Assembly (NCBI GenBank): GCA_021442155.1
Contig: CM038228.1
Location: 85,142,114 to 85,206,113, forward strand
Source of the DNA: Cymbidium sinense
Taxonomy: Eukaryota > Streptophyta > Magnoliopsida > Asparagales > Orchidaceae
Direction of reading: 5' to 3'
DNA: 64,000 nucleotides
Every line of letters begins with the position of its first letter. Positions within the stretch are counted from its first letter, which is position 1. A program made the translations under genes and the position numbers. Below are positions 6,090-41,089 of the stretch, piece by piece. Below the pieces are notes generated by a model. It did not search any database and was not told the DNA's origin. It worked only from the letters and a program-made list of their open reading frames with translations.

Positions 6090-9000
6090 AAAAATTATAA
6101 AAACTTTAAAAATTCATAGAAAAATAAATACAAATCAAAAATTGCAAATGAAAGCTCTATAGATTTATCTTGATGAGAGAAATCCATAGAAATTAAAATC
6201 CCCAATTTTTATTGAGTATTTTCTCTTAATTTGGGTTTAATTGAAAAGTATTAAATCTTAATTACTCTAAAATTAATAATACAATTAATTTGAACCTTTA
6301 AGAAAATGAAATTAAGCATAAAACACACTTTAGATAAATTTTTGGGGATTTAATTTTTTTGAATTCAAATAAAATTGAAATTTCATATGTTTAACTTTTA
6401 AATTAATTAAATTAATTAATCCTTAATAAAATAATTAGGAATTTTAATCTAACAACCTTAAATCACCCTAATGAACTTCAATGAACATTAAAACATCACT
6501 TAAACTCAATTAAACCTGAAAATCCTTAAATTAACCTAATTAGATAATTAAATGAATTAAATAATTCACTTAAATAACATGAACTTAATTAAATCATAAT
6601 AAATCAACTAGTTAACCAAAAATTATGAATAAACTCTCATTGGAAAGATATTTTAGTGAGAAATTTATAAAAAATAAAACCCTTAACTGAATCTCATTGA
6701 ATTAAGCCTGATTTAGGTTTTAATGAAATAATTAAAATCCTAATTATTCCCTTAATTACAAATATAATCAACATGAAACTTTGAACAATTAAAATTGGCA
6801 TGTAACCCCACTTGCCAGAAAATTTTCAATCCCAATTGATATCTGGATTAGGAGTTGTTAAATTTCTAAATCCTTTGGTCAATGTTAATCAAACATTAAG
6901 TTAAGGAAATTAATTAATCTATTAAATTAAATGATAATTCAAATCAATTTCAATCAAACATCAGAAAACTATTAAGGAACTTCTCTAAATATCCTAAGTC
7001 AATTGATGTGATCAAACTCAATCTTAAGATAATGAAGTAAAATCTTAGATTAACAAAATTGTTAATTAACTTAAACCTTAAACTTTGAATCAATGAAATT
7101 TAATGAAAACACTCATCTCTAATGAATTTAAGAATGAATCTAAAATTTAGGTCAATTAAATCAGATCAAATAATTAACCTAAGTACTTTAGGTTAAGCCT
7201 AATCTATGAACAAATCTAAGGTACTAATTCATATTAATGAACTTAAACCTTAAACATATAAATCCATGATTTAAACAACTTAAGTTAAATTGAATGAAAT
7301 CAAACTTTAATCTAAACTCTTAAAATTAACATGAACCAAATCAAATAAAACTCACATAGCTTAATTCAAATGAAACAAATCAGACAAATTAAATCAAACA
7401 AAGCAATTTAAACAAATGAAATAACATAAATCAAAGCCAAACATAAATAACATCAAAAAGATTAATTAAGATACTTAGGGATCTTAGTTAGACTTTTTGA
7501 AACCTCATTAGGATTTAGGATGTGGAATAAAATGAGTTTCACCTAAAAATAAAATTCATTCTATTTCTCATTCTTGAAAACTTAAATATTTCTTTAACCA
7601 AATAAAATGAACATAAAAAGAGAAATTAAATCACAAAACCATTTGAATTGAAACTAATCAATGATAAAAATTAAATAAATTCAAACTTCAAATTTAAACT
7701 TGAACTTAAAGAAGCCTAGCAAAGTCTTACCACACAAGCTCAACTTCTACACACACTAGATTACTTAGGTCACGGGCTCTAGATCTAGGTTAGATCATTT
7801 TGTGATTTTTTTTTAATCTCCTGTGATATGTTATGATGTGCTTCACATGTATATGTGGTGTATTGCTTTAGACTGGATGCCTAGGCTTGTTGTTCATTAG
7901 ACTGGATGTTAGGGCGTTCTTTCTAGATTTAATATTATTTTCTGCATGGGACTGTGTTAAAGGGATCGCTATAATAAATAAATCATAAAATTATTGTTTG
8001 CTTGCAGGTGCTGAAAATCCATTAACATAGTCCATAGGACAGGTGGGCTTGGCAAGCAACTAATGCTAAGCTCGTATGTTTGTGAAATATAAATTATTTT
8101 ATGTGTTGTGTGTATTTCCAAAGATATGTTTTGCAGGGCTTAGAATTTCTTTTTTTGAATTTTAAATATAAATTTGAGCTTAGAATTATGTTAGGATCTA
8201 TGGGGTATAGGATTAAAAGTGACCCAACTAGGAGGTAGTGTGGTGGTCCCTTGTGGAACCTTATGGATGTCCCTGAAGAAGGAGATTTTCCTGAAAAGAA
8301 AACTCATAGATCTAAAATTTGTAGTTCTAGGTCGGGTTGTATAAGGACAGAACTCGGCTGCCCATTTTTCTTTCTTCCAGAGTGTCTGTGATCGCATTTT
8401 TTATATAATTTAATTTGGCTTGATTTATTTTGGGTGTGCAATAGAAACATCATGCTTTTCTTAGGTTTCTTTTTTGCTATATGTTTGTCTTTGTGATGAA
8501 TGCTGACGTAGGCTCATAGGATAAACTAAATTTTATACCCAACTAAATCAATTGAAACATAAAATTAAATACAACTCGTAATCTTCATATAAAAGCCTGG
8601 ACATTAAAGCAAGATAAAATATGTAGCAACCCCTTAGCTGGATGTATTAACATCATGCAGAAATCATATTATTTCACTCTTGATTAAGGAAGGGCTTCTA
8701 TCTTTGCTAGAGAACCTGAGCTTGACCTTTGAGAGCCTATGATGAAAGAACACATTCTCTTCTGATTTGGTCCATAATCTTTTTCTAATTGCATGCATTA
8801 AGCATAAAATGAATCCTGAGTCAAAAATTATAAAAATTTGAAAAATATGCATTTGTCAGATGCATCTTCATACCATACATAATCTTAGGGATTAGGGAGT
8901 GAGTCTAGGTTCATAGATTCCTTTCCTAAGAATACAACAGTCTAGTCATATTGCATTTATATGACTTAGCCTCATGATTGTAAAATGTGCATAGATAGTT

Positions 9001-9755
9001 TTAGCTGGCAGTCTTCTCTAGGCAGGTTGTAAGTCTAGAAGAGTCAGCAATATGTTAGTTCCCTCAAGTGAGGAGAATGGACAATGATTCTCAAAATAGA
9101 ACTAGGTCGAGCATGTAACATGTGTCAGAAGCAGCTGTTGACTAAGTTCTAAAGCATCCTTTTAGGAATAAGTCTTCAATCCTAGGCTTTTCTGCAGTCT
9201 TGTGCTGCTAGAATCTAAGCCTTAGATTTCTAATAAAATATCAACTTAAAATCTAAAATTAAAATCCTAAATTTGAAGCTCAATCATAGGATAGTTGAAA
9301 TGTCTACTGGGTATCCCAATATCAATAGGTGTTTCCTACTTTTTCCTATTTGACTCTTGAAAATAATTCTCTCCAATTTGGACCTCTCCCAACTGAATTT
9401 TCCAAAAATCAATCTTTTGAAAGCTACCTTAGTAGTCTTTAAGAATAACCACTTATTTCTTTAATCGAGAGTATTCTTAGGAAGAGAACATTCCTAAGAT
9501 GTAATTAACTATAGAGGCTTGCCTTTATAGGGAACCATAATCCCAAGATAAAATAAATCATGTTCTACTTTTCCATATAGTTTAGGAGAAAATACTCTGG
9601 TACATGAAAGACTCATTAGCCTTAGGAGTCTTTTATTGAAATGATCGAATCCATTATATGAGAGCATATTTATCTTTTGAGATAATATGTTTATTCCTTA
9701 ATGTCTTATTTAATCATCTAAATAAAATATTCCTAAACTCTAAGTGGTGTCATTT
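6090..9755. repeat. Long AT-rich noncoding repeat, copy B
   Basis: Second, diverged direct copy of the 590-5215 repeat. Landmarks are in the same order, with an offset of about 5.5 kb at the start and about 4.5 kb from the middle onward. Mismatches and indels throughout indicate an old duplication. It carries no recognisable coding sequence. The two copies may be paired long LTRs with almost all internal sequence lost, or tandem copies of a noncoding repeat. Confidence 0.6.
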
Positions 9756-12622: not shown

Positions 12623-15143
12623 ATGCCGTCCCTCAAACCCGACTCTGCCTCCGCCGCCGCGGCCGTAGAAGCCGTACCACACGCCACTGGAGAATACCCA
12701 AAGCACAATCTCGCGTCCCTTCTGGCCGCAGCTCGTCCCTTCCTGCGCGACCAGGCCGACGCCGTCCCTTCCGACCCCGCCCTCTCCTCCCTCCTCTCCA
12801 CCCTCCGGGCCGCCGGCGCCGGCGAGTGCTCGCACAAGCATGGCACCTTCGCCCGCCCATCGGCGTCCACCGCATCGCCAGCCCTATGGGCGCTCCCCTC
12901 CCTGTCGCCCGTTTGCGGCCTCTACCACTCAGCTTACTCTAATTCCTATGTTAACCTAGCCATCTTCGAGCCCGGCGCCACCTCTCGCGCCGCTCTCAGC
13001 CTCACCCTCGGTCCCTCCGCTGAGCGACTCATCCACCTCTTCTGCATCGTCCCCCGCCAAGAAATCATCCACGATTTCCTCCTCTTCCGCTACTCCGACG
13101 CAGAGCTCGCTGATCACCTCATCGCCTCCGCTGATTCAGCCCGCCGGGGGATCGACGAGCCCCACAAGATCAATTCCCTGCTCCCACCACAGGAGATCTC
13201 TGTTAAGCACATCCGCACAGGGGAAGACGTTCTGGTTTCACGGCGGGTTATCGCGACGTTCCTCCTGATGACAATGGCTGATTTCAGCGAGCAGTTGTTT
13301 AATTTCCAGGATCGGTTCTTCAACAACGAAGACGGCCGGTTTCAGTTCACTGGAAACAATGTTTCCGGAGCTCTGTGGCCGGGGGACGGACGACCTGGGT
13401 TATGGTCCTATGGATGAATTCTATCTCGCGGATGGGGGCAATTAGGGCTGTAAATGAACCTGTGCACTTGTTGAATTACCGAATTGCGATTAATCTTCGT
13501 ATGTTGCTCAAATTAATAAACAAACAAGTTTCAACAAAAAACTCCGATGTTAAACGAATCAATACAACACGATCTTACTCGCTTGTTTATGATCATGAAT
13601 ATACTATATTTATCTCGATAATTAAATCATAAATAATTAATATTAAGTTTTGATAATAATTCATATATTATCTTCAAAATATTAGTAAATATTATAAAAT
13701 TTATTTTAAGGAGTCTTGGAAGACATAAAAGTTATATTAATTCAGTTTTACCTAACAAGAAAAAGAAGACATCAAAGTCATTAATCTTTCTTAATGAGTC
13801 TTAGAATGTGATATTATAAATTTTTTTGTGCAACCATTCAATGTGAAGAATAATATCATTGTTATTAATCCACTAAATATATGAATGATTGTATATTTTT
13901 GGGAAAAACTATTATCAAGTTTTGAATACGTTATGAATATTTTATTCATTAATATGTGTTTCAATGTTAATCATTTTTTTTTTTTTGAAAAAATAGTAAT
14001 ATATTATCACTCTCTTATGAATTTGAAGCATATGTTAGATTTGTAAATACATAAGAATTCGGTGGTATGTATGTAAAGCCCCCATTGAGGGGTTGATAAG
14101 AGCTTATTCTATATAGAATGATTCTAATTAGGTATGTACTCTTTAATTTTTTAGTATTTTGTTTTCAAATTAATTTTTTATTATTATTTTTTGTTTTAGA
14201 TGCCTTGTTTTAAAAAAATTATTGTAATTTGTGAGCATACAATAACTCAATAAGGCATATTAGCAAGTTTGATTATGTATTTTAAATTTTTTTTAAAAGT
14301 TGTCTTTATTTTTTTAGTAAAAGGCCAACTATTTCCTTCATATTTTGAAAATTATCGATCTATATATTTTTTATGAATTTATATGATCATATTATCAAAA
14401 CATTTAACTATTTATTTTTATGTATTTTTTAATCAAGCTTACCTTTTATAGAATTTTTCATGATTTAGTTTCTTTTTAGAATCTAAATTTTGTATTCTAA
14501 GTAAAACTTGCTTGAGATTTAAGAGGATAATTACAACAAAAAATTAGAGAAAATATAAGTACTCATTTAAAACTCATTAATTAACTCAATTAAATACTGC
14601 TTTGATTAATTCAAACCAAGACAAAGCTCAACATATATAAATTAGAAAGCAACATCCATACAAAAGCTTCGAACTCGCTTTAACACGAACAACATTTAAT
14701 TTGTCCAAGCCAAGTCCAATCCGAGGAGTACTCGGCTCAGCTCGGCTCGATTACAGCCTTAGGGGCAATCTATAACCTCATAGTGAATGAAGAAGAGATA
14801 TACATGGAGGAGAAGCGGAGAGACGGAAGAAGAGTGGAAGAAGAAGATGAGGGCATAGACTGTGGTTCACTGTTCAGAGTCGCATGAGGGTTTTGGATGA
14901 CGATCGAAAACAAATGAGGGACTTGTACGTGAGGTTGGGTGGCTGAGACACTGGAGGGGACAAGACCTAAAAAGTGCTGAGGAGAGCTACCAGAAGAACC
15001 CATTCGTCGGAGAGCCACATGTGGTTTAAGCAGTTTATTTGGGAATGGAGAGGTGGGAGGAGGCTGAGAGAGAGGCGAGAGAGGGCTGAGCCCTTGTTGG
15101 GGTGGGGAGTGCATGGGATAAGAGGGTGACATGGGAGGGGTGG
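12623..15143 (+). pseudogene. Broken gene: conserved plant protein with TPR-like C-terminus, split by a hAT insertion
   Basis: The GC-rich reading frame opens at ATG 12623 and runs to 13417. It matches a conserved plant family I know from its motifs: NLASLLAAARPFL, HKHGTF, GLYHSAYSNSYVNLAIFEPG, IHLFCIVPRQ, VKHIRTGEDVLVSRRV, ADFSEQLF and ALWPGDGRPGLW. The family may be the one with a DUF6817 domain; its biochemical role is not known to me. Several lesions are visible. About 12853-12912 is read out of frame: the +1 frame there gives the expected IGVHRIASPMGAPLPVARL, so two compensating frameshifts are present. An 8-bp insertion at 13406-13413 shifts the frame just before MNSISRMGA. A hAT element sits at 13443-14761. 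Beyond it the homology resumes (YNLIVNEEEIYMEEK at 14770, then CEKNPFVGEPHVV-like sequence near 14990) with more stops and shifts, and is lost at 15143. No intact protein can be made. Confidence 0.8.
13443..14761. mobile_element. hAT-type transposon inserted in the gene relic, 8-bp TSD
   Basis: A perfect 8-bp TSD, GGGGCAAT, lies at 13435-13442 and 14762-14769. The left end is TAGGGCTGTAAATGAAC; the right end, read on the other strand, is TAAGGCTGTAATCGAGC, so short TIRs are present. Removing the element and one TSD copy restores the reading GAI|YNLIV across the join, which proves it is an insertion into an exon. The 1.3 kb interior is AT-rich with no recognisable transposase, so the element is non-autonomous. 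A half copy of the fold-back family lies inside it near 14030-14080. Confidence 0.85.
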
Positions 15144-15500
15144 AGAAATGTCCGAGTCCATAGACGTAGCTTTACGCGCGACTCAATCCATCGACGTCCG
15201 ATTTTTCCCGCTTTAGCGTTAATGGAGCGATACAACGGATGGCGCCAGAAGGGATGGCGATTCACGCCGTTTACACTTCCCGCCGACCCGCCCGCAGGTC
15301 GCTCAAAAGCGGAGAAGAAGAACGAGATATCCGTGTCACATTCCTCGCCACGTAACGCTTTAGTGCTTTCTTTCGACGGGATTTTTCTCGCCTTAGCTGC
15401 TCTCTCGACATCCGCCTTCGCCGGATATAGAAATCAAAAATTGAGGTATCAGTGACTACATGAGGTATTTACACATGCATTTTCGAACTTGAATGAATTT
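15144..15500. other. Unidentified GC-richer junction segment
   Basis: The gene relic ends abruptly after GGGAGGGGTGG (15143) and this unrelated sequence begins. It is GC-richer than its neighbours and carries an open frame at 15102-15455 with no recognisable product. It may be the left end of the composite element whose tandem array starts near 15500. No matching inverted end was found on the right side (25561-25785). Confidence 0.4.
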
Positions 15501-18080
15501 AGGGTTTACTCGTTTCTTCTCACCCAGTGAAAAATTGGTTATTTTTATATATTATTTTGTATTTGTACTCTCTCAGATCTCTCGAGGGTACATAGCATTC
15601 GTATTTTTTTCCGCTTTAGCCTATTTCTTGAGATTATGTTCATTACATTCAAATGTAAGTAATTTGAGGCGCTTTAGATAGGGGTTTTATGATTCAGCAC
15701 TCTGATCTCTTGAGGATAGTGATCATTTAGCCTACTTTTTTTTCGCTTTATCTTGCCTTCTTCTTGAGATTATATTTAGGCATTCCAATGGAAGTAATAT
15801 GAAGGTTGTTTGGATGATTTGATTTTTGCATCTCAGACTCTCTCTTTGAGGGTATAGATCATTTATGTCATTTTTTCATTTATTTTGCCTATTTATTGAG
15901 ATAATGTTCATTACTTTATGGAAGTAATTTGAAAGTTTTGATTTTTGGGGTATTTTGCATTCAGACTCTCTGCCTCTTGAGGGTACATATCATTTTATCC
16001 TTTTTTCCTTTATTTTGCCTACTTCTTTGATTATGTTTAGGGCATTCCAATGGAAGCATTTGGAGGTCGCTTGGATGGTTTGGGGATATTTTGCATCCAG
16101 ACTCTATACCTCTCCTGAGGGTACATATCATTTATGGCCTTTTTTCTAGTTTATTTTGCCTGATTCTAGAGATAATGTTCATTAGATTACAATGGAAGCA
16201 ATTTGAAAGCTGTTTGGATGGTTTCGGGGTATTGATTCGTCCAGTACCTCTTTGGGGTAAGATCATGTCATTTTCAGTTTATTTTGCCTTAATTAGAGAT
16301 TATGTTTAGCATTCCAATGGAAGCAATTTGATGGTCGCTTGGATGGTTTATTTGGGGTATTTTGCATCAGACTCAGACCTCTTTGAGGGTACAGATAATT
16401 TATGGACTTTTTTTGCCGCTTTATTTTGCCTACTTCTTGATTATGTTTAGTGCATTCCAATGGAAGCATTTGAGGTCGTTTTGGATGATTTCGGTATTTT
16501 GCATTCAGACTGCACTCTTTGAGGGTACAAATCATTTATGGACTTCTTGCCGCTTTATTTTTCCTACTTCTTGATATGTTTAGAGCATTCCAATGGAAGC
16601 ATTTGAGGTCGCGATGGTTTCTGTATTTTGTATCAGACCACCTTTGGAGGGTACAGAGCATTAAGGGACTCCCGGGTCAAGTTTATTTTGCCTATTTTTG
16701 AGATTTTGGCATTCCAATGGAAGCAATTTAATGGTCGCTTGGATGGTTTATTTGTTTTTGACAGTACTGTACCTTTGAGGGTACAAGCATTTGACTCTTT
16801 TTTCATTTATTTTGCCCGATTATTGAGATTATATTTAGACATTCCAATGGAAGCAATTTGATGACTGCTTGGATGATTTGGGTATTTTTTTGCATCTGAC
16901 TGCACCTCTTTGAGGGTACGAGCATTTAGAGACTTCTTTTTCCAATTTATTTTGCATGTTTCTTTAAATAATATTCATTACATTATAATAGAAGCAATTG
17001 AGTTGGATTATTTGGGTATTTTGCATCAGACTCTCAGACCTCTCGAGGGTACATTATTTATGGCCTTTTTTCAGTTTATTTTGCTGATTATAGATAATGT
17101 TCATTACATTATAATGGAAGCAATTTGTCGCTTTGGATGGTTTGGGGTATTTCAGATTCACTGCACTCTTTGAAGGATACGATCAAGGACTTCTTTTCCT
17201 AATTTATTTTGCTTGTTTATTGAGATTATGTTTAGGGCATTCCAATGGAAGTAATTTGATGGCTACTTGGATGATTTATTTGAGATATTTTGTATCTGTA
17301 CTCTCTGTACCTCTTTGGAGGGTCCAGAGCATTTGGGACTTTGCGCTTTATTTTGCCTACTTCTTTTGATTATGTTTAGTGCATTCCAAAGCATTTGGAG
17401 ACGCTTTAGATGGTTTCGGTGGGTATTTTGCATTCTCAGTACCTTTTGAAGGGTACAGATCATTTATGGACTTCTTTGCCGCTTTATTTTGCCTACTTCT
17501 TTGATGATTATGTTTAGGCATTCCAATGGAAGCATTTGGAGGTCGCTTGGATGGTTTGGGGGGTATTTTGCATTCAGTACTCTGCACTTTGGAGGGTACA
17601 GATCATTTATTCTTTTTGCTTTATTTTGCCTACTTATTTTGATTATGTTTAGGGCATTCCAATGGAAGCATTTGAGGCTATTTGGATAGGTATTTTGCAT
17701 CTAGATTCTCTGTACCTCTTTGGGGGGTGCGTGATCATTTATGGACTTCTTGCCGCTTTATTTTGCCTACTTCTTTGATTATGTTTAGACATTCCAATGG
17801 AAGTATTTGAGTCGCTTTGGATGGTTTCTGGGTATTTTGATCTCAGACTTTGTTCTGAGGGTACGACATTTATGGCCTTTTTTCCGTTTATTTTGCCTGC
17901 TTTCAGATTATGTTCATTACATTACAATGGAAGTAATTTGAAAGTCGCTTTGATGGATGATTTGGGGGTATTTTTCATCTCAGACTTTGTCTATTTGGAG
18001 AATACGAGCATTTGGAATAATTTGGAAGCTATTCGCTTGGTTTTGATGGGTGATTTGCATCTGTACTCATTACCTACTGA
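15500..18080 (+). repeat. Left tandem array of a degenerate ~125-140 bp unit
   Basis: About 17-18 units follow one another. Each carries, in order, a TTTGAGGGTAC word, CATTTATGG, TTTATTTTGCC, GATTATGTTTAG or ATAATGTTCATTA, CATTCCAATGGAAGCA, a TTGGATGGTTT word and TATTTTGCAT. CCAATGGAAG-like words recur near 15785, 16047, 16190, 16315, 16455, 16588, 16709, 16838, 17240, 17519, 17656 and 17791. Units vary by substitutions and small indels. Open frames within the array are chance products. The same unit occurs in reverse orientation at 21585-25560, so the two arrays form a giant imperfect inverted repeat. Confidence 0.88.
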
Positions 18081-18095
18081 CTTTTCTTTTTGAAG

Positions 18096-18644
18096 TTTAT
18101 CATGTCTGGGAAAAGGATAACTTCGAGATGCAGGCCTACCACTGTAAGAACTGTGTTCGATAATATTGCAGCACGCTTTACTGATGAAGCCACTGACATT
18201 TTAAAGAGGCTTCATCTCCATCAATTCATTAGACTAATTAAGCAAGACTCAGTTGCCATTACATCGATCGCTTTGGACATAAAAGCAAGCTTTCTTGGTG
18301 GGCAAGGCATTCCTTTCACCCCAATGAAGTTGATGATGATAGGGATGCCAAATGAGGGGAGAAGGTATATATGAATCCCAGCCGCAGCTTCACCATCTGA
18401 CTACAAGAATCAACTTGAGAATTGATGGCTCGTTGCTCAGAAAGCACATTTTGTGCTTGTATACGTCTTGCCAAATCTATTTTTTATATATCACAATTGT
18501 AGGGTGGCATTAGAATTGATTGCCTACGCCGATGACATAGATAGATTTGCTGAATACAACTGGGCAGAGGCCATTTGGGACTTTCTGGTTTCCCAATTTG
18601 ATATTATTACATCAAATATTCGCACCCGTGAGGTAGGTACATGA
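18096..18644 (+). pseudogene. Mobile-domain / DUF1985-like protein remnant of a transposon
   Basis: Two open stretches (about 18090-18374 and 18453-18644) in different frames belong together. The first includes HLHQFIRLIK and GGQGIPFTPMKLMMIGMPNEGR; the second includes YADDIDRFAEYNWAEAIWDFL. This pattern, a G(I/V)PFTP..(T/I)GMPN block followed by a DI(D)xFxxYxWxxAxxDFL block, resembles the DUF1985 / plant-mobile-domain-like part of MULE proteins that also carry a Ulp1 domain. Stops and shifts between the blocks mean it is not functional, unless introns separate them. The family call rests on pattern memory. Confidence 0.5.
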
Positions 18645-19821
18645 GTGGCTTTGTCATCTTTTGGTATGTTCTATATCTCCGTGAATGTGTAATTTAATGC
18701 ATTGAAGTTTCTTAAAATATTTATTGTAGATATGGGTGAGCACATAAGCATCATGGCTCATTTCCATCTGCAAAGCCACGATGCGATGGGGGAAAAATAA
18801 GTTTTCAAATAATATTTTCACTAGTTTGGGAGGAAACCAGGTGACATATAATAATATCACTTAGTTCATATAAGAATGTCTTTATTTATATTGTATGTCT
18901 TCACATTTTCTTATCGATTTATCACAGTGCCGCTTTCATTCAAGGACATATTAGAAGAGGAGAACTGCTCCTTCTGTCCCGCCAACATCTACATGTCCCC
19001 GATACCCATTTTAAGTCCAATTAGTAGCCCCACGAGTCTCCATATCTCTCCTCGATATTCTCCCGGCCCAGGTATCTAGCATGCTCTGCTACTACCCCCA
19101 CAGACTTTCAGAGAGGATACTTGTGTTTCAAGGACTTGAAAGATACGATCATCTTTCATGCAATAATGACGAGAGGATGGATGGGCTTGATTTGTGGGTT
19201 CTGCTATCAGGAAGTTCTTACCGTGCAGGTCCTACCACCCCAAGTGTGGGGGAGGTTCCTGTGGGGGTCACCACAGGGAAAACTCTTGAGGAGGCTACCA
19301 CAGAGCTGTGGAGGGTACCCCGGGAGGCTATCCACTTGGAAAGCCCAGGAGGGTAAGAAGCTCTGGAGGCTACGAGCTTCCACTATGGAGTTGGATACTC
19401 CAACGGGAAGCCCATGTGGAATTGACCATAGAAGTTCTTGAGGACCTCCACTACACATGACGATTCAAACCCAGAATCGGCAACATTGAGCATGGTGTGA
19501 AAGCTCTAGATAAGAAAGAGGAAAGCTATTCCTCCCTTCACACACACTTACAGAAGTCACGAAAGAATAAGTGATGTGGTGGCCTCCACTCAAGATGAGA
19601 AGCCAGAAAGGTATTAAGTTACTTTCTTTTAAATTTGAGATAGAAATAGATTTCACTAAATATTTTAGGTTCAAGAAAGATGAGCCAAAGGTCGACCCAG
19701 ACTATCGTTGTGGTGGAGGAGCATCAATCGGAGGTATGAAAAATACTCAGTAGATCGATCCTTAATTCATAGTGAATCTAGATCTTCATCACTAACTTTC
19801 GACATCAGTAATTTCCTTGCA
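18645..19821 (+). other. Internal region of the composite element, no domain recognised
   Basis: Short open stretches occur on the plus strand (for example 18876-19079, ending in a Ser/Pro-rich segment, and 19081-19356). They could be linker exons of the transposon protein between the mobile-domain-like block and the Ulp1 block. A GGAGG/CCTCC-rich patch (about 19240-19450) shows short internal repetition. Nothing supports a host gene. Confidence 0.35.
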
Positions 19822-20659
19822 GCCATCAGAGGCACTTCATGTTGTTGAGTTCTCATCCAGAGTTATTTTGCCTAAGCCGATGCTCGATCTTATCACACGC
19901 CATGCTCCCGAAGGACAAGTCAATCTTCACGCCTCCTTCATACATAAAATAACCTATTCGCTTTAATTAAGCTCACTTTAAAATATTTATCACTTGCAAG
20001 GGTGATACAAGATTCATTGAGAATATCACAGATGAGTAGATCGATGAGTTGCTCAGATCAATATCTCTGATGATACATCGATGCCTTCGCATTTTTTCCG
20101 CCGATATTTCGCTCGTCTATGTCCCCTATTTGTACATTTCATGCTTGCATCGTTACCCGGAATGTTGGGTAATTCAATTTTGTTTAGATAAAAGCTATAA
20201 TCTATAATCGTTTCTCTTCTTTTCCCAGAAGTTATGTGCACGCCTAAAAAGACGAAAGAAAAATGTTTATCCAACATGTCACACAAGTGTGTCGGTGAGT
20301 TAATCTTACCGCCGTTATAGATAATCATCGACACTCGGTTAAGTATAGTCGTGGGTATTTTTGACTCATTATCCAAACCAACCCATAAGAGCATTCTTCC
20401 CGAGATTGTAAGAAGCTTTTCAAATTTGGTTCCTCTTAACTATTTTTTTTTTCGCCAACTTGTTGAGATTATGTTTGCTATTCGATCAAATTACTTGTTG
20501 AAGATGTCGCTTTTCGAAGCGATCCCAAAAAATGGCCAATTGAAATGGTGAGGATACCCAAGAAAATAGACGGAATATTTGTCCAAATACTTGGAGGCGA
20601 ATTAGAAAACCTTAAGTGGGTAGACCACCGATTGGCCAAAGAAGATGAATATATTTAGA
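19822..20659 (+). pseudogene. Degenerate Ulp1-like (C48) cysteine protease of a transposon
   Basis: Plus-strand fragments fit the Ulp1/SENP peptidase layout. The first is a 5' block (VVEFSSRVILPKPMLDLI, from about 19825). A central block at about 20345-20440 reads VGIFDSLSKPTHKSILPEIV, matching the usual V.D(S/P)L.. stretch after the catalytic region. A final block (from about 20527) reads WPIEMVRIPKKIDGIFVQIL, where family members have a GDxCGIFV catalytic-cysteine motif. Here the motif is shortened and the Cys is missing, so the copy is catalytically dead. Blocks lie in different frames with stops. Ulp1 domains captured by MULEs are known in plants. The coding direction matches the mobile-domain remnant just upstream. 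Confidence 0.6.
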
Positions 20660-21580
20660 AGTTATTATTATATATTTTGTTTGGGACATAAAATCCAAAT
20701 TGAGAACAATAGTATTTAGTTTGATATAGAATTTTGTATAATGCATCGGTTTGGTGGCTTCGAAGACTTAGCTGTTTTTGTTGAAGTGAATGGATCGTTT
20801 ATGGATCTGGGATGCTATTTTACTCTGCTTTTTGTAACTTCTGTTCTCTCATTTTATATAGTTTGATTTCATCGATATTTTACTCGGGATGATATTTTGA
20901 ATCATATTTTATCTTATAGATTTGGTTTTGGGGCTATACTCTTAAAAAGAAATGCATTTAAAATCATTTTAATGGTATTTTGTTATGAGCGTAATGCATA
21001 AAATTAATGCGAAATGCATAAAATAAATGTTATCCGAATTCATAAAATTAATGCATAAAATTAAATTAGGGATTACGCCATTGTGATTATTTTTTTTAAA
21101 AGTTTCATTGTAAAATTATTGTGGTTGGTGTAAGTAAATTTTTGATTGTAAAATCATGATATTTTAACAGTTTTAATTTTAACTCATATGTATTAAAATA
21201 TGATTATGATTGTTGTTAGCTATTTTTTTATTATGAAAATAAAGCAATTAAAAAAATTAAATCATATGTATTCTTAGTATGCTCATGCTCGAGTGAAATG
21301 AAGTTGAATATTAACTTGAACCTTATCATTAATTAATTTGTCTATTTATGAAATAAAAAACAAAATAAGTTAATCTATTATAAAATATAGTATTTTTTTT
21401 GCATTGCAATATGAAAAATTTAATTTTATAACCAGAATGAAACTTGTAAAGAGATAACTTTTAACATTTAATTATATAATAATTATTTTTAATTAATTGA
21501 ATATTGTAAATACAATAGATTAAGAGGTTTTAAATTTGTCACCACATTATGAGATTAAATTAACTAAATTTTGACTAGAT
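20660..21580. other. AT-rich sequence between the transposon core and the right array
   Basis: No gene or clear repeat is recognised. The word GCATAAAATTAATG or close variants repeat a few times near 20990-21060. Confidence 0.45.
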
Positions 21581-22574
21581 AGTTATAAATGATCGTACCT
21601 CCAAAGAGATAGAGTACGATGCAAAAAATATAAATAAACCATCCAAGCAACCATCAAATTGCTTCCATTGGAATGCCCTAAATATATAATCTCAAGAACA
21701 TAAAATAAACAGTAAATGCCTGTACTCCAAAGAGGTACATAGAAAATGATGCAAAACACCAAATCATCCAAGACCATCAAATTGCTTCCATTGTAAATGA
21801 ATGAACATCTAAAGAACAAAAAAATAAACTAAAAAAAACTCCTAAATGCTCACTCCAAAGAGGTACAGAGTACGATGCAAAATACCAAATCATCCAAATA
21901 GCCATCAAATTGCTTCCATTGGAATGCCCTAAATATCTCAATAATAAAAGCAAAATAAAAAAAGTCTAAATGCTCACCCTCCAAAGAGGCAGAGAGTACA
22001 GATGCAAAAAAATACCAGAAATTATCCAAGCACATCAAATTGTCCATTGGATTACCCTAAATATATCTCAAGAATTAGGCAAAATAAAATGAAAAGAAGT
22101 CTAAATGATACCTCCAAAGAGACAGAGTACAGATGCAAAATACCCCAAAACCATACAAACAAACAAATTGCTTCCATTGAATGTAATGAACATTATCTCA
22201 GAATCGTAAAATAAACTAGAAAAAAAGCCATAAATGATATCCCTTCAAAGAGGTACGAGAGTACAGATACAAATATCCTCTAAAACCATCCAAACTTTTC
22301 AAATTGCTTCCATTGTAATGTAATGAACATTATCTCAATCGCAAAATAAACTGAAAAGACCATAAATAATCAGATTTCTAGAGAAAAGTTACATACAAAA
22401 TACCCCCAAATCATCCAAGCTCCAAATGCTTCCATTGGAATGCTAAACATAATCAAAAAGAGGCAAAATAAACTATAAAAAGGAAAAATGATATCCTCCA
22501 AAGAGGGCAGAGTACAGATGTAAAATACTCCGAAACCATCCAAACAAATTTCAAATTGCTTCCATTGTAATGTA

Positions 22575-22860
22575 ATTGACTTTCTCAGATATTTTAATCA
22601 TCCAACCTTCAAATCAATGAAAATCAAAAAACCAGCAAATCAACTTTTGAATTTTGTTATCATTTGCTATTTCTTACCCAAAATATAGAAAATCTTTAAA
22701 TTTCTTGAGTTTAATAACTAGTATATCCACAAATTTGATGCATAGTCATAAGATGCATAATCTTCCTCGATTAGAAAGAAAAGTTCAAAAAATTGTAAAA
22801 CTTCATAAAATTGACTGATAGCCACAAAAATGTTAAAAAACAGATGTAAAAAAAACCACC
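22575..22860 (-). pseudogene. Second, more decayed copy of the FAR1-type fragment
   Basis: This insert matches 23825-24180 at several words in the same order: GACTTTCT..ATATTTT next to the array junction, AATTTTGTTA, TTTGAGTTT or TTGAGTTTAAT followed by AATAACTAGTAT, and TTTGATG.GCATAGTCA. It has lost any open frame. Its spacing from the better copy (about 1.25 kb) matches a duplicated array block. Confidence 0.55.
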
Positions 22861-23822
22861 GAATCATCCAGCCCATCAAATTGCTTCATTAGAATATAAT
22901 AAACATAATCAAAAAGAAAGCAAAATAAACTAAAAGAAGTCAATGCCTGCCCAAAGAGGTACAAAGAGTGGATGCAAAAAAAATACCCAAATCATCCAAG
23001 CATCCATCAAATTGTTTTATTGGAAAGTCTAAACATAATCTCAAGAATCGCAAAATAAACTGGAAAAAGGTCATAAATGATATGTACCTCCAAAGAGGTA
23101 CAGAGTAGATGCAAAATACCCTCAAACCATCCAAGCCCTCAAATGCTTCCATTGGAATTCTAAACATAATCAAGAAGAAAATAAGTCAAAAAAAGAAGTT
23201 CTAAATGTTAGACTCCAAAGAGGTACAAAGAGTACAGATGCAAAATACCACAAATAAATCATCTAAGCAATCATCAAATTGCTTTCATTGGAATGCTCTA
23301 AACATAATCTCAAGAAATAGGCAAAATAAACTGGAAAAAGGTTATAATGATCATCTCTCCAAAGAGGTACAGAGAAAATGCAAAATACCCCAAATCATCC
23401 AAACAAACCTCCAAATGCTTCCATTGGAATGCTCTAAACATAATCAAGAAGTAGGCAAAATAACCGGCAAAGAAGTCTTAATGCTCTCAAATCAGAGCAG
23501 TGTATAAAAAATACCCAAATCATCCAAGCATATCAAATTGTTTATTGAATTCTCAAACATAATCTCAAGAAACAGCAAAATAAACTAAAAATGCATAAAT
23601 GATTCACTCAAGAGAATCAAAAGTATGATACAAAATATCCCCAAATCATCCAGCGACCTCAAATATTTCTATTGGAATGCAAACATAATCAAAAGAAGTA
23701 GGCAAAATAAACTGAAAGAAGAATAAAATGATCGCTCTCCAAAGAGGTACAGAGAGTACAAATGCAAAATACCCTCCAGAAACCATCCAAACAGCTTTCA
23801 AATTGCTTCCATTATAATGTAA

Positions 23823-24140
23823 TTAACTTTCTGTATATTTTTTAATCATCCAATTCTCCTCCAAATCAACAGAGAATCTAATCATGGCCGGATAACTAGT
23901 CCTTGTATCAATTTTTTGGAATTTTGTTAAGCCATTTAGACTGACAGACTTCTTCCGACTAGCTTTTGCACATGGAAAATCTTTTGATTTCAATTGCTTT
24001 GAGTTTGGCCAATAACTAGTATGGTCCTTCCGAACACTGAAGCCAATTTGATGTGCATAGTCACAAGACAGGCATGCCTCCGTTTCTGGTGCCAAAGGAG
24101 TTTCCAAATTCATAGACATCACGACTTTATCGCATCCATG
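23823..24140 (-). pseudogene. FAR1/FHY3-type DNA-binding domain fragment embedded in the array
   Basis: Read on the minus strand, about 100 residues stay open. They fit the FAR1 DNA-binding domain, a WRKY-like zinc-finger fold found in FHY3/FAR1 factors and in their MULE transposase ancestors. Visible blocks are DYAHQIGFSVRKDHTSYW, KDFPCAKASRKKS, DTRTSYPAMIRFSVD and a terminal WMIKKYTES just where HNH would follow. The fragment stops at that point against array sequence, so the domain lacks its last metal ligands and any transposase or SWIM region. It may be captured host sequence or a leftover of a FAR1-related transposase; the abrupt ends favour capture. Confidence 0.68.
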
Positions 24141-25560
24141 ATCGCATTTAATCCAAACAAATACAAAAAAATATACAAAATACAGATGCAAAAAACTACC
24201 CAAAAATCATCCAAGCAGCCATCAAATTGCTTCCATTAGAATATAATGAACATAATCAAAAGAAACAGGCAAAATAAATTATCAAAAGAAGTCTCTTAAT
24301 GCTCTGTACCCCCCAAAGAGGTACAAAGAGTACATATGCAAAAAAACTCCCAGAAATCATCCAAGCATCCATCAAATTACTTCCATTGGAAAGCCCTAAA
24401 CATAATCTCAAGAATCGTAAAAATAAACCGGACAAAAGGCAAATGATCCTCCAAAGAGGTCAGAGAGTACAGAAAAATACCCCCAAACCATCCAAGCAAA
24501 TCCAAATGTTTTCATTGGAATGCCTAAACATAATCAAAAGAAGTAGGCAAAATAAACAAAGAAGTCTAAATGCTCTGACTCCAAAGAACAGAGTAATGAT
24601 GCAAAATACCCCAAATAAACCATCCAAGCAACCATCAAATTGCTTCCATTGGAATGCCCTAAACATAATCTCAAAAAACAGGCAAAATAAATTGAAAAAA
24701 AAGCCATAAATGATATGTACCCTCCAAAGAGGTGCAGAGAGTACAGATGCAAAATACCTCCCAGAAATCATCCAAACAGCCTTCAAATGCTTCTATTGGA
24801 ATGCTCTAAACATAATCAAAAGAAGTAGGCAAAATAAAGCAAAAGAAGTCCTTAATGCTCAGACCTCCAAAGAGGTACAGAGTACTGTACAAAAAAACCC
24901 GTAAATCATCCAAACAGCCATCAAATTGCTTCCATTGGAATTCCTTAAACATAATCTCAAGAAATAGGCAAAATAAATTGGAAAAAATGCCATAAATGAT
25001 ATGTACCCTCCAAAGAGGTATAGAGAGTACAGATGCAAAATACCCCTCAGAAACCATCCAAACAACCTCCAAATGCTTCCATTGGAATGCCCTAAATATA
25101 ATCAAAAGAAGGCAAAATAAACGAAAAGAAGTCCTTGTACCAAAGAGGCCAGAGTAGATGTAAAAAAAATACCCAAAAAAATCATCCAAGTAGCTATCAA
25201 ATTGCTTAGAATTCCCTAAACATAATCTCAAGAAACAGTAAAATAAACGGAAAAAGGCATAAATGATCTCAGACTCCAAAGAGGTAGAGTACAAATACAA
25301 AAATATCAGTAACCATCCAAACAAATTCCAAATGCCATTGGAATGCCCTAAACATAATCAAAAGAAGTAGGCAAAATAAACTGGCAAAAGAAGTCCCTTA
25401 ATGCTCTGTACCCTCCAAAGAGGTACAGAGAGTACAGATGCAAAAAATACCTAAATCATCCAAGCAGCCATCAAATTGCTTCCATTAGAATTTTCTAAAC
25501 ATAATCTCAAAATAACACTAAAAAGTAAAATTCAACAAAAAAGCATCCAAATTGCTAATG

Positions 25561-25785
25561 GAATGTAATGAACATATTCTCTTCATACCAGAATATCACT
25601 AACAAACCAGTAGAAAAATGCGAAACATTATCGATGAATTTCTATTTAATAGATCCTCGCCTAAATTGGTCGCTATTTCTCAACGCTCTACATCTTCATG
25701 GTTCTTTTGTAAAAGGAAATGAGATTTTCTATTTCTTTTTTAGCTCATTTTGCTGAAAAACTAACCTAAAACCCAATAAATGGAG
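25561..25785. other. Junction segment between right array and gene 3' fragment
   Basis: Unique sequence with no recognised gene. It should contain the right end of the composite element, but no inverted match to 15144-15500 and no TSD could be seen by eye. Confidence 0.4.
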
Positions 25786-26084
25786 CCAGACACGGAGGAG
25801 ACAAGACGGAAAAGCTGTTGAGGGAGAGCTGCGAGAAGAACCCATTCGCCGGAGAGCCACATGTGGTTTTGGCGCAGGTTTATTTGGGAATGGAGAGGTG
25901 GGAGGAGGCGGAGAGAGAGGCGGAGAGAGGGCTGAGCCTGTTGTTGGGGTGGGGGAGTGCATGGGATAAGAGGGTGACATGGGAGGGGTGGGTGGCTTGG
26001 GCTAGGGTTTTGCTCATGAAGGCTAAGGAGAAGGATTGGCCCAAGAATCCTTGGGGGATTCTTAATCTTGGCTTGGTTAGATGA
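25786..26084 (+). pseudogene. Orphan 3' end of the TPR-like gene, open to the natural stop
   Basis: An open frame at 25818-26084 reads ESCEKNPFAGEPHVVLAQVY, then MERWEEAEREAERGLSLLL, then VTWEGWVAWARVLLMKAKEK, and ends WGILNLGLVR-stop. This is the expected C-terminal TPR-like end of the family whose 5' part is the relic at 12623. About 200 bp (25792-25993) duplicate 14947-15143, but this copy has kept its frame. The last ~90 bp have no counterpart in the upstream relic. Without a 5' part it cannot make the family protein. It is either the true 3' end of the broken gene displaced by the composite element, or the remnant of a second tandem gene copy. Confidence 0.7.
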
Positions 26085-31500: not shown

Positions 31501-34500
31501 ATGCTGCCTTACTTACGACATTTTGTTAAAAGTACCATGATACGTTATTAAATGTTGTTGGAATATATAAAAACAATGGGTTGTTTCCTCTTGTTTTTGT
31601 TGTTGTAGAGTCCAAATCGACTGATTTCTAGTTGTAGTTCTTAATATGCTTACATGATATGTTGGCTGTAGTGTCTTCTAGATGTGATTTGTGCATCATA
31701 TCTGATAAACATGCTGGTTTGTCACGTGGGTGTACAGAAGTTTTTCCATGGGCCGCTCACAAACACTGCTTGCATCATCTACGTGAAAATTTTAAAAAGG
31801 TGATACGTAGATTGGGGATTGGTGATGTTGAATTTCTATGTCAGAAGATGTATATGGCAGGAAACATTGATGATATTCGTGAGTTTAATCATTTCATGTC
31901 AGATATTAAAAATATGAAAGAAGAAGCTCGCAAATAGTTTGTGGAGCGCAACCCTGTTAAATGGTCACTTGTACATGATCGTGGAATGCGTTATTACGAA
32001 TGACCAACATCCGAATGTTTCAATGATATTAAAGCGCTGGACATTCAAGCTCTAATTATAGCTATTTACTACAACTTAGTTGCATTGTTCATGAAAAGAC
32101 TTGCCTCTGCAACTCAGCAATAGGAGGCCAACTTATCTATTTTCACCCAAAGGATATCCACAATGTTACAGGGTACTAAAAGGGAAGTCAAACATTTCCC
32201 TGAACCGGTGAACATCAACGCCCAGAAGATGCAGGTGTTTGACAAGTCAAGCCGATCATTTAGAGTTGATTTACTTGATAATAGTCAATGTAATTGCAGT
32301 TGCAACAAAACGATCATATATCATTAGCCATGCCCGCATGTTGTTGTTATACTAGGATTTAAAAGATTGAACCACCTAACGTATGTGTCACAGTACTACA
32401 CGCTGCATCTATATAAACTCACATACTTGAATGAGTTTCACACTTTGCTTGACCATTCTGAGTGGCCATCTTTCAGTGTAGAGCACGAACTAGCAATATT
32501 GCAGCCACCCAATTTTCGTAGAAGGTCAGGTAGGCCTCATACCAGTAAGTTCAGAAATACAATGGATGAAAATAGAGCTAGCAGTAGAACCCGCAGCCTA
32601 TGCAGCATATTCACCAAGGTTATCATGTCCACACAATGTTAATAGTAGAATTTATGTCGTAGATATTAGCATACAATGTATATGTTTAGTGCATGTTACT
32701 AAGATTTTCCTTGTAGGTTGCAGTACTCATTTTTTTTTTGCTTACTTTACTCTTCAGCTTTCCCTTTCATTATTTAAAACCGCGAACCGACCATGTGATT
32801 TGTTTGTTTCAATAAGTACGATGGTCGAGGAGCACCGCCCGCTAGACGCCGACGCCATGCTGGGAGGCCACCCATTGGAGCCACCTACTGAGGTCTACCG
32901 TAGCATAACCTCCCTACGTGGACGGCATAAAGTCGCTCACCCTGATACTGTAAGTAATATTTAATTGTTTCTACATTACACCTGCATAATTTTCATTTTG
33001 GCTAATGACTAATCGATCATATTTTTTTGCGAGAATCGCTCTGTAGTCGCTTCACACTCGCTTATGAAGAGTCCATCACACGAAAAAAATTCATCGGGCC
33101 TGGAGGCGGACCTACAAAGATGCTAGCTGCCTTTGTTTCATCCGCCAAGATCATCATCTCTGCCGCGATCGGTTGAGGAATGGTCCACGACCAATACCTT
33201 CCACCGAATCAAGACGACCGCGACACTCCGCGGATGCGAATGATTATGGGATGATGATTGATGGCCACCTATCATTGGCCCAAATGTGACGCAGAGGGGA
33301 AGAGATGGCCCGCCGATTGCCGCTGACAAATTGTTGGGATAACACCGTATACCAAATGTGGTGTACCATGACCCAATCAGTCCACACATCAGATCGACCT
33401 TCATGATGGTCGCACGCGCAGTAGTACATGCCATGGGCTTTTACGAGAAATCACGCCGAGATCCGAGCACTGAGTACTTCAAGCACCCGGTGCCTACATT
33501 CTGCTTCTTATCAGGTGTTTCACCGCCGATACATCGTACAAAGCAAACATGCACGCCATCGAGGTGGCTTTAGTGGGCTTATTACAGAGTCATACGCGAT
33601 CCGGCACCGAGAGTACTTGCACCTACATTTTGTTTCTTATCGAGTGTTTATCGCGATACATCGCGCTCGAGATTCACCGCAGATTCTACTCTGGGAGGAC
33701 CTAGATTCATTCAATACGCTGTTTATAGGAGGAGCGCTCTAGCCCACCTACGAGAATTCCTACGAGTCTACTAGAGGAGCGCTTCTAGCCCACCTCACAG
33801 AGAATTCTAATGAGTCTACTAAGCCTGTGACCAACACCGACGCCTACACCTCCTACGATATGGCCTCGGGAGCATATTCATATGAGAAGACCGACTACAT
33901 GTGTCATATCCCACGATCTACAGCCTCAAAGATTGATGAGGTATATTTTACTTTCTGCACTTTCAAATTTTTAGCGTATATGTTAGTTTTAAATGTGTTG
34001 TGTGCATAGGTGGAACGAGAGATATGTTCGTCAGATGCTAATGGCGAACATTGCATTGTATAGAAATGAGTTGGAAGGCTTATTGCATACTCAGGTTGGA
34101 CTTGCAGAGTACATATCGATTCAAATTTCTATAATGCATATTCTAATTTAACATAATTTTTAACATGTGCACCTTTGAGAGTCGACATTAAGCGAGATCG
34201 CCACGCCGTCACATACACCCAGCCTCGATATATAGCACGAGTCCGCCATCACCGGAAGAGGATAGAGTGGCATTTACCCCGATCGAATGTCGGCTGACTC
34301 ATACCCGTAGAGGGATGGCACCATTTGACCCTAGTTTCAAAATAGTCGATGATCGAGGCAAAGCGAATGTTGACTGAGTTGATTATAATCAGGTGCACAT
34401 TGTTGCATGGGAGAGGCGGAGGGATTACCTCGTCGAGGGCTTGGATGAAGATGAGGATAGTGGCGCTATCAATCGATACGTTTTGCCGTGATTCGCTTCT

Positions 34501-37500
34501 CCACTTACTCGCCTCGTGCATCCTCCGACCACTTACTATCCCAGAACATCTGTAGAGCGTATATATGTAAGCGTTAACATAAGTATTCAATTGAATTCAA
34601 TATATTACTTGAGGCTAATTTCACACACTATTTTTCCATGCAGTCGAAGCACATCTTAGCGACTCAGAACATCTTCCAGCCGCACTTCGACCGTGTAGAT
34701 GAGCACGAGCTACAGAGAGTCGTAGATAGGTACGAGGTATTATGCAGAGACCTGCGATTGCATGTACATATCGCTGATACACATTACGGATCGGAGCTTA
34801 TGGAGGATATCCCATAACATGATTGGGGAGTCAGAGCATCTACATATGCTGATCCAGGTCCATCTATGTATGTTGATCCAGGCCCTTCCTACATATCAGC
34901 CTACTTATGAGTCACAGTCGTCTATCTTCCCGTCACAGGACTATCTGATGCATAATTCCGAAGATCTTGCATTGGAGGGTTACCATCAACTGCGTGATCG
35001 TCCATCACGCGCACTGACCGCACACACTGGTGAGCGATTCCGACGCACGAGGCGTTAGATGTTTAGATACTATTTGCGTCATTACATTTATTCTTAGTTA
35101 TTTTATTTTTGTTTCTGGATCATCAACAACAACAACAACAACAACAACAACAAGCCTTAATCCCACTAAGTGGTGTCGGTTACATGAATCTTTTGTCTCC
35201 ATTGTGTCTTTTTATGTGTCAAATTCTCATTTAATTCAAGTATACTAAGGCCATTTTTATACATCTTAACCAAGTCTTTTGTACTACCTTTCTTAACATA
35301 AGAAATCTAATGCATCTACTCTCCCATCATCTGGACGCAGACGCTTTATGTACTTAATTCATACATACATCTTTCACCTTCTTTTAAGATCTAATCTATC
35401 AGATAAATCACTAAAAGTTAAATTTTTCATCATATATTACTTTCTTATAATCTCTACAGGCCACTTTATATCTTTCTCAATTCTCTGAGTTTTTACATCT
35501 AAAACAAGTTTTATAACAATGCTTCATATTTCTTATCTTTTCTTACATACTCTGACTCCACCACCAACTATTCTTATTAAAAGAAGCTTTTCCTTTTGAT
35601 TCTTCAAACACATCTTTAACAACTTACTTAATTTCACTTGCTATTTTTTTTTCTCACATAACATTAACTTCCTTATGAATATCCCAAATTCTAATCTCAG
35701 TTTCTTAAAAATATTTTATTTACGTTTCTTTAATTGTCATCTAATCCTGTGACAATAATTTGATTTATTTTTCTCTTACAACCTTTCATCTTAAAATCTA
35801 AAACTAACAATCGATATCGACTTAAATTTTCATTTGGAACACCTTTACAATCTTTACAATCTAAACGATCTATTTTTCTTATCGAAAATAATCAACTGTG
35901 TTTTACTAGATTCATTTTTATAAGTAATAATATATTCATCTCTTTTCTTAAATAAAGATAAGAACTACAAAATCATAAGTTAAGACAAAAAATCTAATAT
36001 ACCCTACCTTCTTCATTACCACCCAAATCCATAACCACCATGAATATTTTTAAAATCTTCTATCACTCTACCAACATGTTCATTTAAATCTCCTCCGATA
36101 TATACTTTTTCTTCAAGAGGTATCTTTTGTTTCTGGATCATTCATTTATATAAATACTTGCACTCACTTTTTGGAATGACTTGTAAAACTTGTATTCAAT
36201 TTTGTTCTTAGTTTTAGATCTACTTATGTAAATACTTTGTTCTTAGTTTTAGATCTACTTAAATGAAAACCTGCCGACTTTAAGATTGACCTCTATAATT
36301 GACGATATGAGCTTAAAGCTAACGAATGGAACATCTAAACTTAAAGCAAAAAAACATAAGAGCTTAAAGCTAATCCTTGATGTAACAATGCCTACACCAA
36401 CCAATAATTAGATCGTTATTACCTAATCTCAAATTAACGTTTGAGTCGACGCTATACTTACGCCCACTTAATGGGAAACTATACCTATTTCTAAATTTTT
36501 TTTTAATGATACTTAATTCCCTAATTAAGTTTCTAATGATACTTATTTTAAAAAAATACCCATTATTATACATACCAATAATTGTCTAAATATAAAATAA
36601 TAATAATAAATAGGATAACCATTTTTTCTTAAATAAAATTGGATTAACTCTCTAATATTGTGTGTGCTTTTTCTAAGCCTTATATTTCATTATCCTCTCC
36701 AATATATTCAATATACAATTCATAAGTTTGTATCAATCTATATGAAACTTCATGATAGCATAGATTCACACTTCCTAAGAAAAAAAAATCTGTAAGCCAT
36801 AATTAAGAACTCCTAAACAAAGTTTTTATTTTCTATTTCATTAGTGAGTTCAATGACAACTTATTATAAGTCTTAATAAATATAATTTGATCAAAATCTT
36901 GACTTATAAATTCGACATCTCAGTTTGTATACCAAGCAAGGAACTAACAAACCTTTTATATATATCATCAAGAATTATAACTTTGGTTTTACTTAACATT
37001 CTTTTGTAAAATGTCTAGCTTCCATGATATAAGCACTAGAAAACAAATGAGATTTTTTTAAAAATCTTATTTCACGCACAAAAGAAGCTTTCAGCGTACC
37101 TGTCCCTTTCATGAAGAGAAAAAGTGGACTGTCGCATATTTTTCCCCTAGGTCGGTGAGGGAAAAAGAAGACGCAGTTTTCTTCATCAACCATTGCATCA
37201 GAACCATGGGATTGAACCTAAAAAATAAGTTAAAGGGATTATTAAGAAACAAAGTACTGTATTCCAAAAAGAAGATCCTCTTTGAGCTATATTAGTACCA
37301 CTCAGTTTCAATGTTCATGGAGAGGAACCAAGGCATCAAAATGTTCTAGTGGTGTGGGATTTATATATATATATATCACACAATATTTAAGTATTTACAT
37401 ATCTATCACCTAAATTTCAATATTTATATAAATAATAATTAAATCTTTTAATATCACATCAAAAATGTCACTATCATCAATGTTTTAAAAGCGAAGTCAC

Positions 37501-41002: not shown

Positions 41003-41089
41003 AACCGGTTTTAGGGTTTCCCTCCCCTGCTCGGCCCTTGCCCAGAGGAGAGAAAATAGAGAGAGATAGAGAGAAAGAGGCAAACGGAA

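Follow-up and report, generated by a model that had tools for sequence, protein, structure and literature searches.

Inverted tandem arrays around a 3.5-kb core within a split gene of Cymbidium sinense: a candidate decayed foldback-type element

In a 64,000-nucleotide stretch of the Cymbidium sinense genome (assembly GCA_021442155.1, contig CM038228.1, positions 85,142,114 to 85,206,113; hereafter the window), two large arrays of one short unit face each other in opposite orientation, and the question raised by this locus is whether the arrays and the core between them form a mobile element or a local rearrangement of satellite-like DNA. A preliminary description, made from the sequence alone, had proposed an undescribed element type, either foldback or resembling the Mutator-like elements (MULEs). 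Our analysis points, with a probability of about 0.55, to positions 15144-25787 of the window being a decayed foldback-type DNA element, possibly MULE-related, that broke a plant gene. The link to MULEs is suggestive.

The extent of the arrays was established with a unit profile of 126 positions, iterated with nhmmer at a cut-off of E≤0.01, which returned 47 matches to a unit of roughly 135 bp, three of them fragments shorter than 75 bp. All fall within two arms:

15553..18071, + strand: left arm, with 20 unit matches (18 near full length and 2 fragments) whose starts lie mostly 124-144 bp apart
21587..25581, - strand: right arm, with 27 unit matches in three blocks, one of them a 40-bp fragment, whose starts lie mostly 118-150 bp apart

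The profile search found no match outside the arrays in the window at this cut-off. Loosening the limit to E≤10 gave five stray matches, the best (E=0.21) at 20451-20476 in the core. The control, a window shuffled locally, yielded two matches at this loose limit, neither of them reaching E≤1e-3. Both arrays were recovered independently by Tandem Repeats Finder (TRF). Over near-complete length, the left array (15607-18000) aligned with the reverse complement of the right array (25530-23088) at 68.7% identity across 2572 columns, and the same alignment test in the other orientation gave no match. The view that one degenerate unit forms two arrays of opposite orientation was thus borne out by profile, TRF and arm-to-arm alignment, self-comparison having found the arrays related where an absence of relationship had been named in advance as speaking against it; the unit counts, first put at about 17 on the left and about 28 on the right, were revised to 20 and 27. 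Like foldback elements, the stretch therefore has long inverted arms of tandem repeats, here bounding a core of 3.5 kb. A weak solitary likeness to the unit was also seen in the core at 20446-20497 (+), with 73% identity over 52 bp (BLAST E=0.002; profile E=0.21). An Rfam scan of the window gave no match, and a 25-bp unit pattern had no exact match in collections, free of plants, of viral contigs and of bacterial and archaeal contigs.

It had further been suggested that a transcript through both arms could form a long hairpin and feed small-RNA pathways. This is possible, with the qualification that such a transcript would pair imperfectly, because the arms are 68.7% identical and the longest exact complementary run between them is 35 nt.

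The two arms contain one mixed population of unit subtypes. Comparison of 44 units, the three fragments shorter than 75 bp being left out, gave mean identities of 0.707 for pairs from the left arm, 0.711 for pairs from the right arm and 0.695 for pairs across arms. The arm label changed 12 times on the maximum-likelihood tree, where shuffled labels gave means of 14.3 (R) and 14.0 (L) and values equally low arose in 63/500 and 86/500 shuffles; five of the 41 inner branches of this tree were starred, and its bootstrap had not settled. One mixed-arm group joins eight units, four from each arm (support 98/95), seven of which carry the TTCATTACATT variant according to a motif scan. Another joins 15 units, seven left and eight right (support 92/87, below the program's star), and the shorter GAAG[CT]ATTTG variant was found by motif scan in 11 of them. 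As the subtypes span both arms, they either predate the separation of the arms or have been exchanged between the arms since. A strict mirror order of units across the arms was not seen, no offset being prominent among those with at least five pairs (mean identity 0.667-0.735); in the DNA alignment of the arms, the outer-end register scored highest by a small margin (965 bits; runner-up, 898 bits). Arm-specific divergence was considered and rejected as a reading, a single one of 544 column-base tests having passed Bonferroni correction (p=1.5e-5), at a place in the alignment that is rich in indels.

The right array is broken in two places, of which the preliminary description had made no mention, by copies of one piece derived from a FAR1 DNA-binding domain:

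23831..24179, - strand: FAR1 DNA-binding-domain piece, first copy (PF03101; domain at about 24065-23835)
22588..22840, - strand: FAR1 piece, second copy, shorter and decayed with many deletions, with the same unit neighbours

The first copy contains an open frame that matches PF03101 with 38.6 bits against a cut-off of 28.1 (E=1.8e-9). Plain BLAST of this copy against the whole window returned only itself at E≤0.01, and the second copy was revealed later by direct comparison. The two pieces align end to end with a score of 65.5, the maximum of 1000 dinucleotide shuffles being 33; as further controls, the reverse complement scored 27.5, and none of 148 other pieces taken from the window scored above 28.5. 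A search of the FAR1 frame against the protein database gave one candidate, and none scored. Both pieces come after the sister units R11/R19 (support 97/82) and before the sister units R12/R20 (support 93/92, these rows including a few bases of the piece), and they therefore probably derive from one capture that was duplicated together with its neighbours. Within the right arm, a lag of eight units gave the highest mean identity of 13 lags (0.742; 18 pairs, range 0.52-0.85), the p value of 0.0038 from 5000 shuffles being that of this lag alone, without correction for the 13 lags inspected. In the left arm, the unit spacing shows no gap of the size of a FAR1 piece. FAR1-type DNA-binding domains occur in FAR1-type MULE transposases. 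Here, PF03101 is present in the right arm only as a piece, which could be a captured fragment of a host gene; the host FAR1 gene family is in turn described as derived from MULEs (PMC8599713).

Conservation along the unit is concentrated in one region. The near-palindrome TTCCAATGGAA falls where the unit is best conserved; it was counted 11 times in the left arm and nine times, on the opposite strand, in the right arm, and is absent elsewhere in the 64 kb. Seven of the best eight 12-column windows of the unit alignment lie in ATTCCAATGGAAGCAATTT and the other in CTTGGATGATTT. When columns were permuted, the top 20-column block stood out under each of the three measures (p≤0.003), as did the top 12-column block (p≤0.0065). 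Retained as it is amid a decaying unit, the near-palindrome has the look expected of binding sites for a dimeric protein. The unit may accordingly be viewed as a set of putative repeated binding sites, for which the TTCCAATGGAA block is the best candidate.

On the evidence of protein homology, one plant gene has its 5' part to the left of the stretch 15144-25787 and its 3' part to the right. For this gene, the following features were delimited with the help of the homologue P0014:

12624..13443, + strand: 5' exon of the host gene, the first half containing DUF6817 (PF20680, E=8.1e-16); the frame is open as far as 13417 and shifts after that
14741..15143, + strand: middle part of the host gene, frame-shifted and ending abruptly at 15143, corresponding to P0014 residues 30-71 and 104-172
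14946..15143, + strand: left copy of a direct repeat of about 200 bp, host gene sequence
25788..25991, + strand: right copy of this repeat, host gene sequence
25794..26084, + strand: 3' part of the host gene, uninterrupted up to the stop, corresponding to P0014 residues 107-202 and matched by all 24 homologues

The homologues were obtained with a composite query built of both flanks, and the seven that bear an organism name are all plants. All 24 match the left and right remnants alike at E≤1e-3. Their matches to the left remnant stop at 15143 in 23 cases, one reaching 15182, and those to the right remnant mostly extend to the last codon ahead of the stop at 26084. P0014 follows a collinear order through 13319-13443, 14741-15143 and 25794-26081; together with P0016, it is one of two homologues among the 24 that match the end of the 5' exon (13274-13443) and then continue into the C-terminal part. 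As the homologues match both flanks, the stretch therefore looks like an insert of about 10.6 kb, at about 15144-25787. The left remnant contains a frame shift, the right one reads open, and the two copies of the direct repeat are 89% identical. The C-terminal part of the host gene appears TPR-like by eye. A 1.3-kb AT-rich stretch within the gene, at 13444-14740, is an intron or another insert.

The core between the arms had been described as holding a mobile-domain/Ulp1 coding relic. Its recognisable parts are as follows:

18102..18644, + strand: core reading frame of 180 codons with two TGA interruptions, no database match
20321..20658, + strand: core reading frames, by eye like the end of a plant Ulp1-like protease, no database match
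20661..21586: AT-rich stretch leading from the core to the right arm, 22.5% GC

None of the 44 core frames of at least 40 amino acids (17900-21700) reached the curated Pfam cut-off, the best stray match having E=0.082, and two stitched core proteins and one read-through gave no Pfam match. Neither DUF1985 nor Peptidase_C48 (Ulp1) was found by Pfam in any of these frames and proteins, in which decay may hide them. NCBIfam gave no match for four core frames, a search of the stitched core piece against the PDB gave two chance-level matches only, and none of 4698 protein database candidates reached E≤10 with the stitched core protein. The mobile-domain/Ulp1 label was therefore dropped, what is left of it being a remark made by eye: the 18102-18644 frame looks like the N-terminal region of those transposon proteins of plants that end in Ulp1, a likeness that the searches do not support. 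An AlphaFold model of 18105-18641 was of low confidence (mean pLDDT 46). As an observation on composition, CGCTT is enriched on the + strand at 14676-20508: of its 39 occurrences on that strand in the window, 25 fall here, compared with 3 of its 19 occurrences on the - strand, and the excess extends over units, core and left flank alike.

Outside the arrays, the stretch ends in two short segments:

15144..15552: left non-array end segment, without counterpart at the right end
25582..25787: right non-array end segment

Compared inverted and direct, these segments resembled each other no better than shuffles. A number of results weigh against the interpretation as an inserted foldback element. 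Terminal inverted repeats outside the arrays were not found (score 10, shuffled mean 11.4, p=0.93). Nor was a short target duplication, the longest word common to the outer flanks being 8 bp, equal to shuffles, and such a duplication could have been lost through decay. The flanking direct repeat, at about 200 bp, is unlike the 9 bp of MULEs and is therefore not a MULE target duplication. The MULE transposase PF10551 was not found by Pfam in the 44 core frames, the stitched proteins or the read-through, and hairpins of single units exceeded mononucleotide shuffles in stability by only a little (mean z -0.69, 44 units). The homologues of the host gene are proteins, in which intron positions are not visible, and the stretch might occupy a former intron or a gap between two partial gene copies; likewise, the arms might stem from a satellite-like array that was duplicated locally in inverted orientation.

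This last possibility was weighed as the strongest competing explanation, namely that an ordinary local satellite gave rise on the spot to an inverted duplicate of itself, through break repair for instance, with transposon debris of unrelated origin in between, and was never mobile as a unit. Break repair with duplication can leave a flanking direct repeat, and the repeat of about 200 bp fits the repair of a staggered break better than transposition; it would be compatible with break repair, with insertion between partial gene copies or with intron insertion near a partial duplication. The failure to find a transposase, outer ends or a short target duplication agrees with a local origin, as do the differences in unit number and the block duplication, which are usual satellite behaviour. 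Against this, the entire stretch, both arms included, has parts of a single host gene on its two sides, and the core lies enclosed by the arms, the last unit match of the left arm ending 31 bp short of the ATG of the first core frame. A purely local satellite is on balance considered unlikely, while remaining a serious contender.

Given the conserved motif and the by-eye resemblance of the core to a DUF1985/Ulp1-like layout, which searches did not confirm, it was also considered that the arrays might be the non-coding target repeats, bound by VANC, of a VANDAL- or KAONASHI (KIU)-like MULE. As in VANDAL and KIU, there are tandem repeats with a short conserved motif in non-coding sequence, binding here being only putative; the repeats flank a core and keep one motif. 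In the published accounts, VANC binds non-coding tandem repeats of VANDAL elements and removes silencing, its targets in Arabidopsis often being arranged in tandem outside the coding parts of the element (PMC5735166, PMC10398659), KIU belongs with VANDAL among MULEs without terminal inverted repeats (TIRs) that have such repeats with short conserved motifs (PMC5735166, PMC10398659, PMC13317346), and VANC genes that carry Ulp1 exist, KIU having an Ulp1-carrying protein (PMC13317346). The stretch differs in that the DUF1985 and Ulp1 domains went undetected in all 44 core frames, the stitched proteins and the read-through, and no VANA-type transposase was found. Furthermore, VANDAL TIRs are degenerate (PMC10398659), in contrast to the kilobase inverted copies seen here, and the portions available of those accounts do not describe VANDAL or KIU repeats as inverted kilobase arms (PMC5735166, PMC10398659, PMC13317346). 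This origin is accordingly judged improbable.

An artefact of assembly or consensus, whether a misjoined inverted repeat or a noisy consensus in a tandem array, is very improbable: many small indels separate the units (up to 15% indels in TRF) and six indels, five of them of 1 bp, separate the flanking gene copies, but the indel-to-substitution ratios of four chosen unit pairs (0.03-0.31) and of the gene repeat (0.27) show no clear excess over those of eight other repeat pairs of the window (0.06-0.25), and noise would not yield subtypes common to both arms or an open-frame FAR1 piece.

The foldback interpretation can be set beside known elements. FARE2, an Arabidopsis foldback element reportedly described by Windsor and Waddell in 2000, is said to be a plant element with modular inverted arms and a large internal region. 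Its arms are said to measure about 550 bp and to be accompanied by 9-bp target duplications; no 9-bp duplication and no transposase were found here. Long inverted arms of tandem units, the number of which may differ between the arms, are known from Tetris in Drosophila virilis, Galileo in D. mojavensis and Tm1 in root-knot nematodes (PMC4079207, PMC3573991, PMC3169594), and the proposal of an undescribed type was therefore too strong. Tetris has units of about 220 bp in arrays of up to 66 copies, long arrays having been placed inside Tetris by fibre-FISH, and arms that reach no more than about 1.7 kb in those sequenced copies that are described (PMC4079207), compared with 2.5 and 4 kb here. 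Galileo F has two or three units of about 210 bp (PMC3573991), against 20 and 27 matches here, and Tm1, a family with a Mutator-type transposase, has units of 13-15 bp (PMC3169594), against about 135 bp. Both Tetris and Tm1 have target duplications of 8-10 bp and defined outer ends (PMC4079207, PMC3169594), neither of which was found in the Cymbidium stretch, and the FAR1-domain piece in one arm sets it apart from Tetris, Galileo and Tm1 as these are described there. PF03101 is known from FAR1-type MULEs and from host FAR1/FRS genes (PMC8599713, PMC6000157); here the DNA-binding domain, which could come from a host gene, stands alone as a piece in an arm, no catalytic part of a transposase having been found. 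Of the earlier proposal, the foldback geometry stood, whereas the MULE-like part, no MULE transposase domain having been found between the arms, was reduced to a suggestive tie. As no short duplication, outer ends or transposase were found, the stretch is not classed as FARE, MULE or VANDAL, whose build it resembles.

If the foldback interpretation is correct, the arrays would have grown through unequal crossing-over or slippage, and the subtypes would already have existed when the arms became inverted copies, or would have been exchanged afterwards. The FAR1-domain fragment would then have entered the right arm and been copied along with about eight units. The putative sites of the unit may bind a DNA-binding protein of the element itself, either a transposase or a VANC-like anti-silencing factor, and more sites might bring stronger recruitment. 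A precedent for the former is given by the reports on Galileo and Tetris, where the tandem repeats of the arms are proposed to be extra transposase binding sites (PMC3573991, PMC4079207). The present copy, which lacks a recognisable transposase gene, is probably dead or non-autonomous. A bolder proposal, which we put forward as a long shot, is that of a plant foldback type in which kilobase arms with a regulatory role, through dozens of putative sites for a DNA-binding protein that the element itself would encode, co-evolve with a FAR1 DNA-binding-domain exon multiplied in one arm.

Other features of the window lie apart from this stretch. A separate MULE relic was detected at 31638-31934 (+), probably within about 29.4-36.1 kb, where the MULE transposase domain PF10551 scored 28 bits (cut-off 27.6, E=3e-6) and PF00872 (Transposase_mut) matched with E=4e-6. 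Dispersed repeats in both orientations occur at 35121-36130, 51096-51506, 52673-53408, 54003-54407 and 62029-62446 and are 71-85% alike in the pairs listed, 35355-36130 and 52673-53408 sharing 80% over 797 columns. An old direct duplication links 2895-5192 and 7427-9716 (65% identity over 2.4 kb), a 310-bp tandem repeat, 97% alike, occupies 63328-64000 and reaches the window end, and a 219-amino-acid open frame at 40439-41098 (-) is OTU-protease-like by eye and has no Pfam match.

As a single decayed copy, the stretch serves well as an example but does not yet make a new class. Among the literature matches listed, which are of limited coverage and available in part, there was no description of plant inverted arms of 2.5-4 kb built from units of about 135 bp with a FAR1 piece. 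Should the regulatory-arm proposal prove true, it would join foldback geometry with VANC-like anti-silencing. If further copies exist, they would represent plant foldback arms at satellite size, in parallel to Tetris in Drosophila, and a record of an arm taking up a coding piece and copying it with its neighbours. In such copies, the growth of arrays could then be asked about in relation to DNA-binding sites, as in the proposal made for Galileo and in the targets of VANC.

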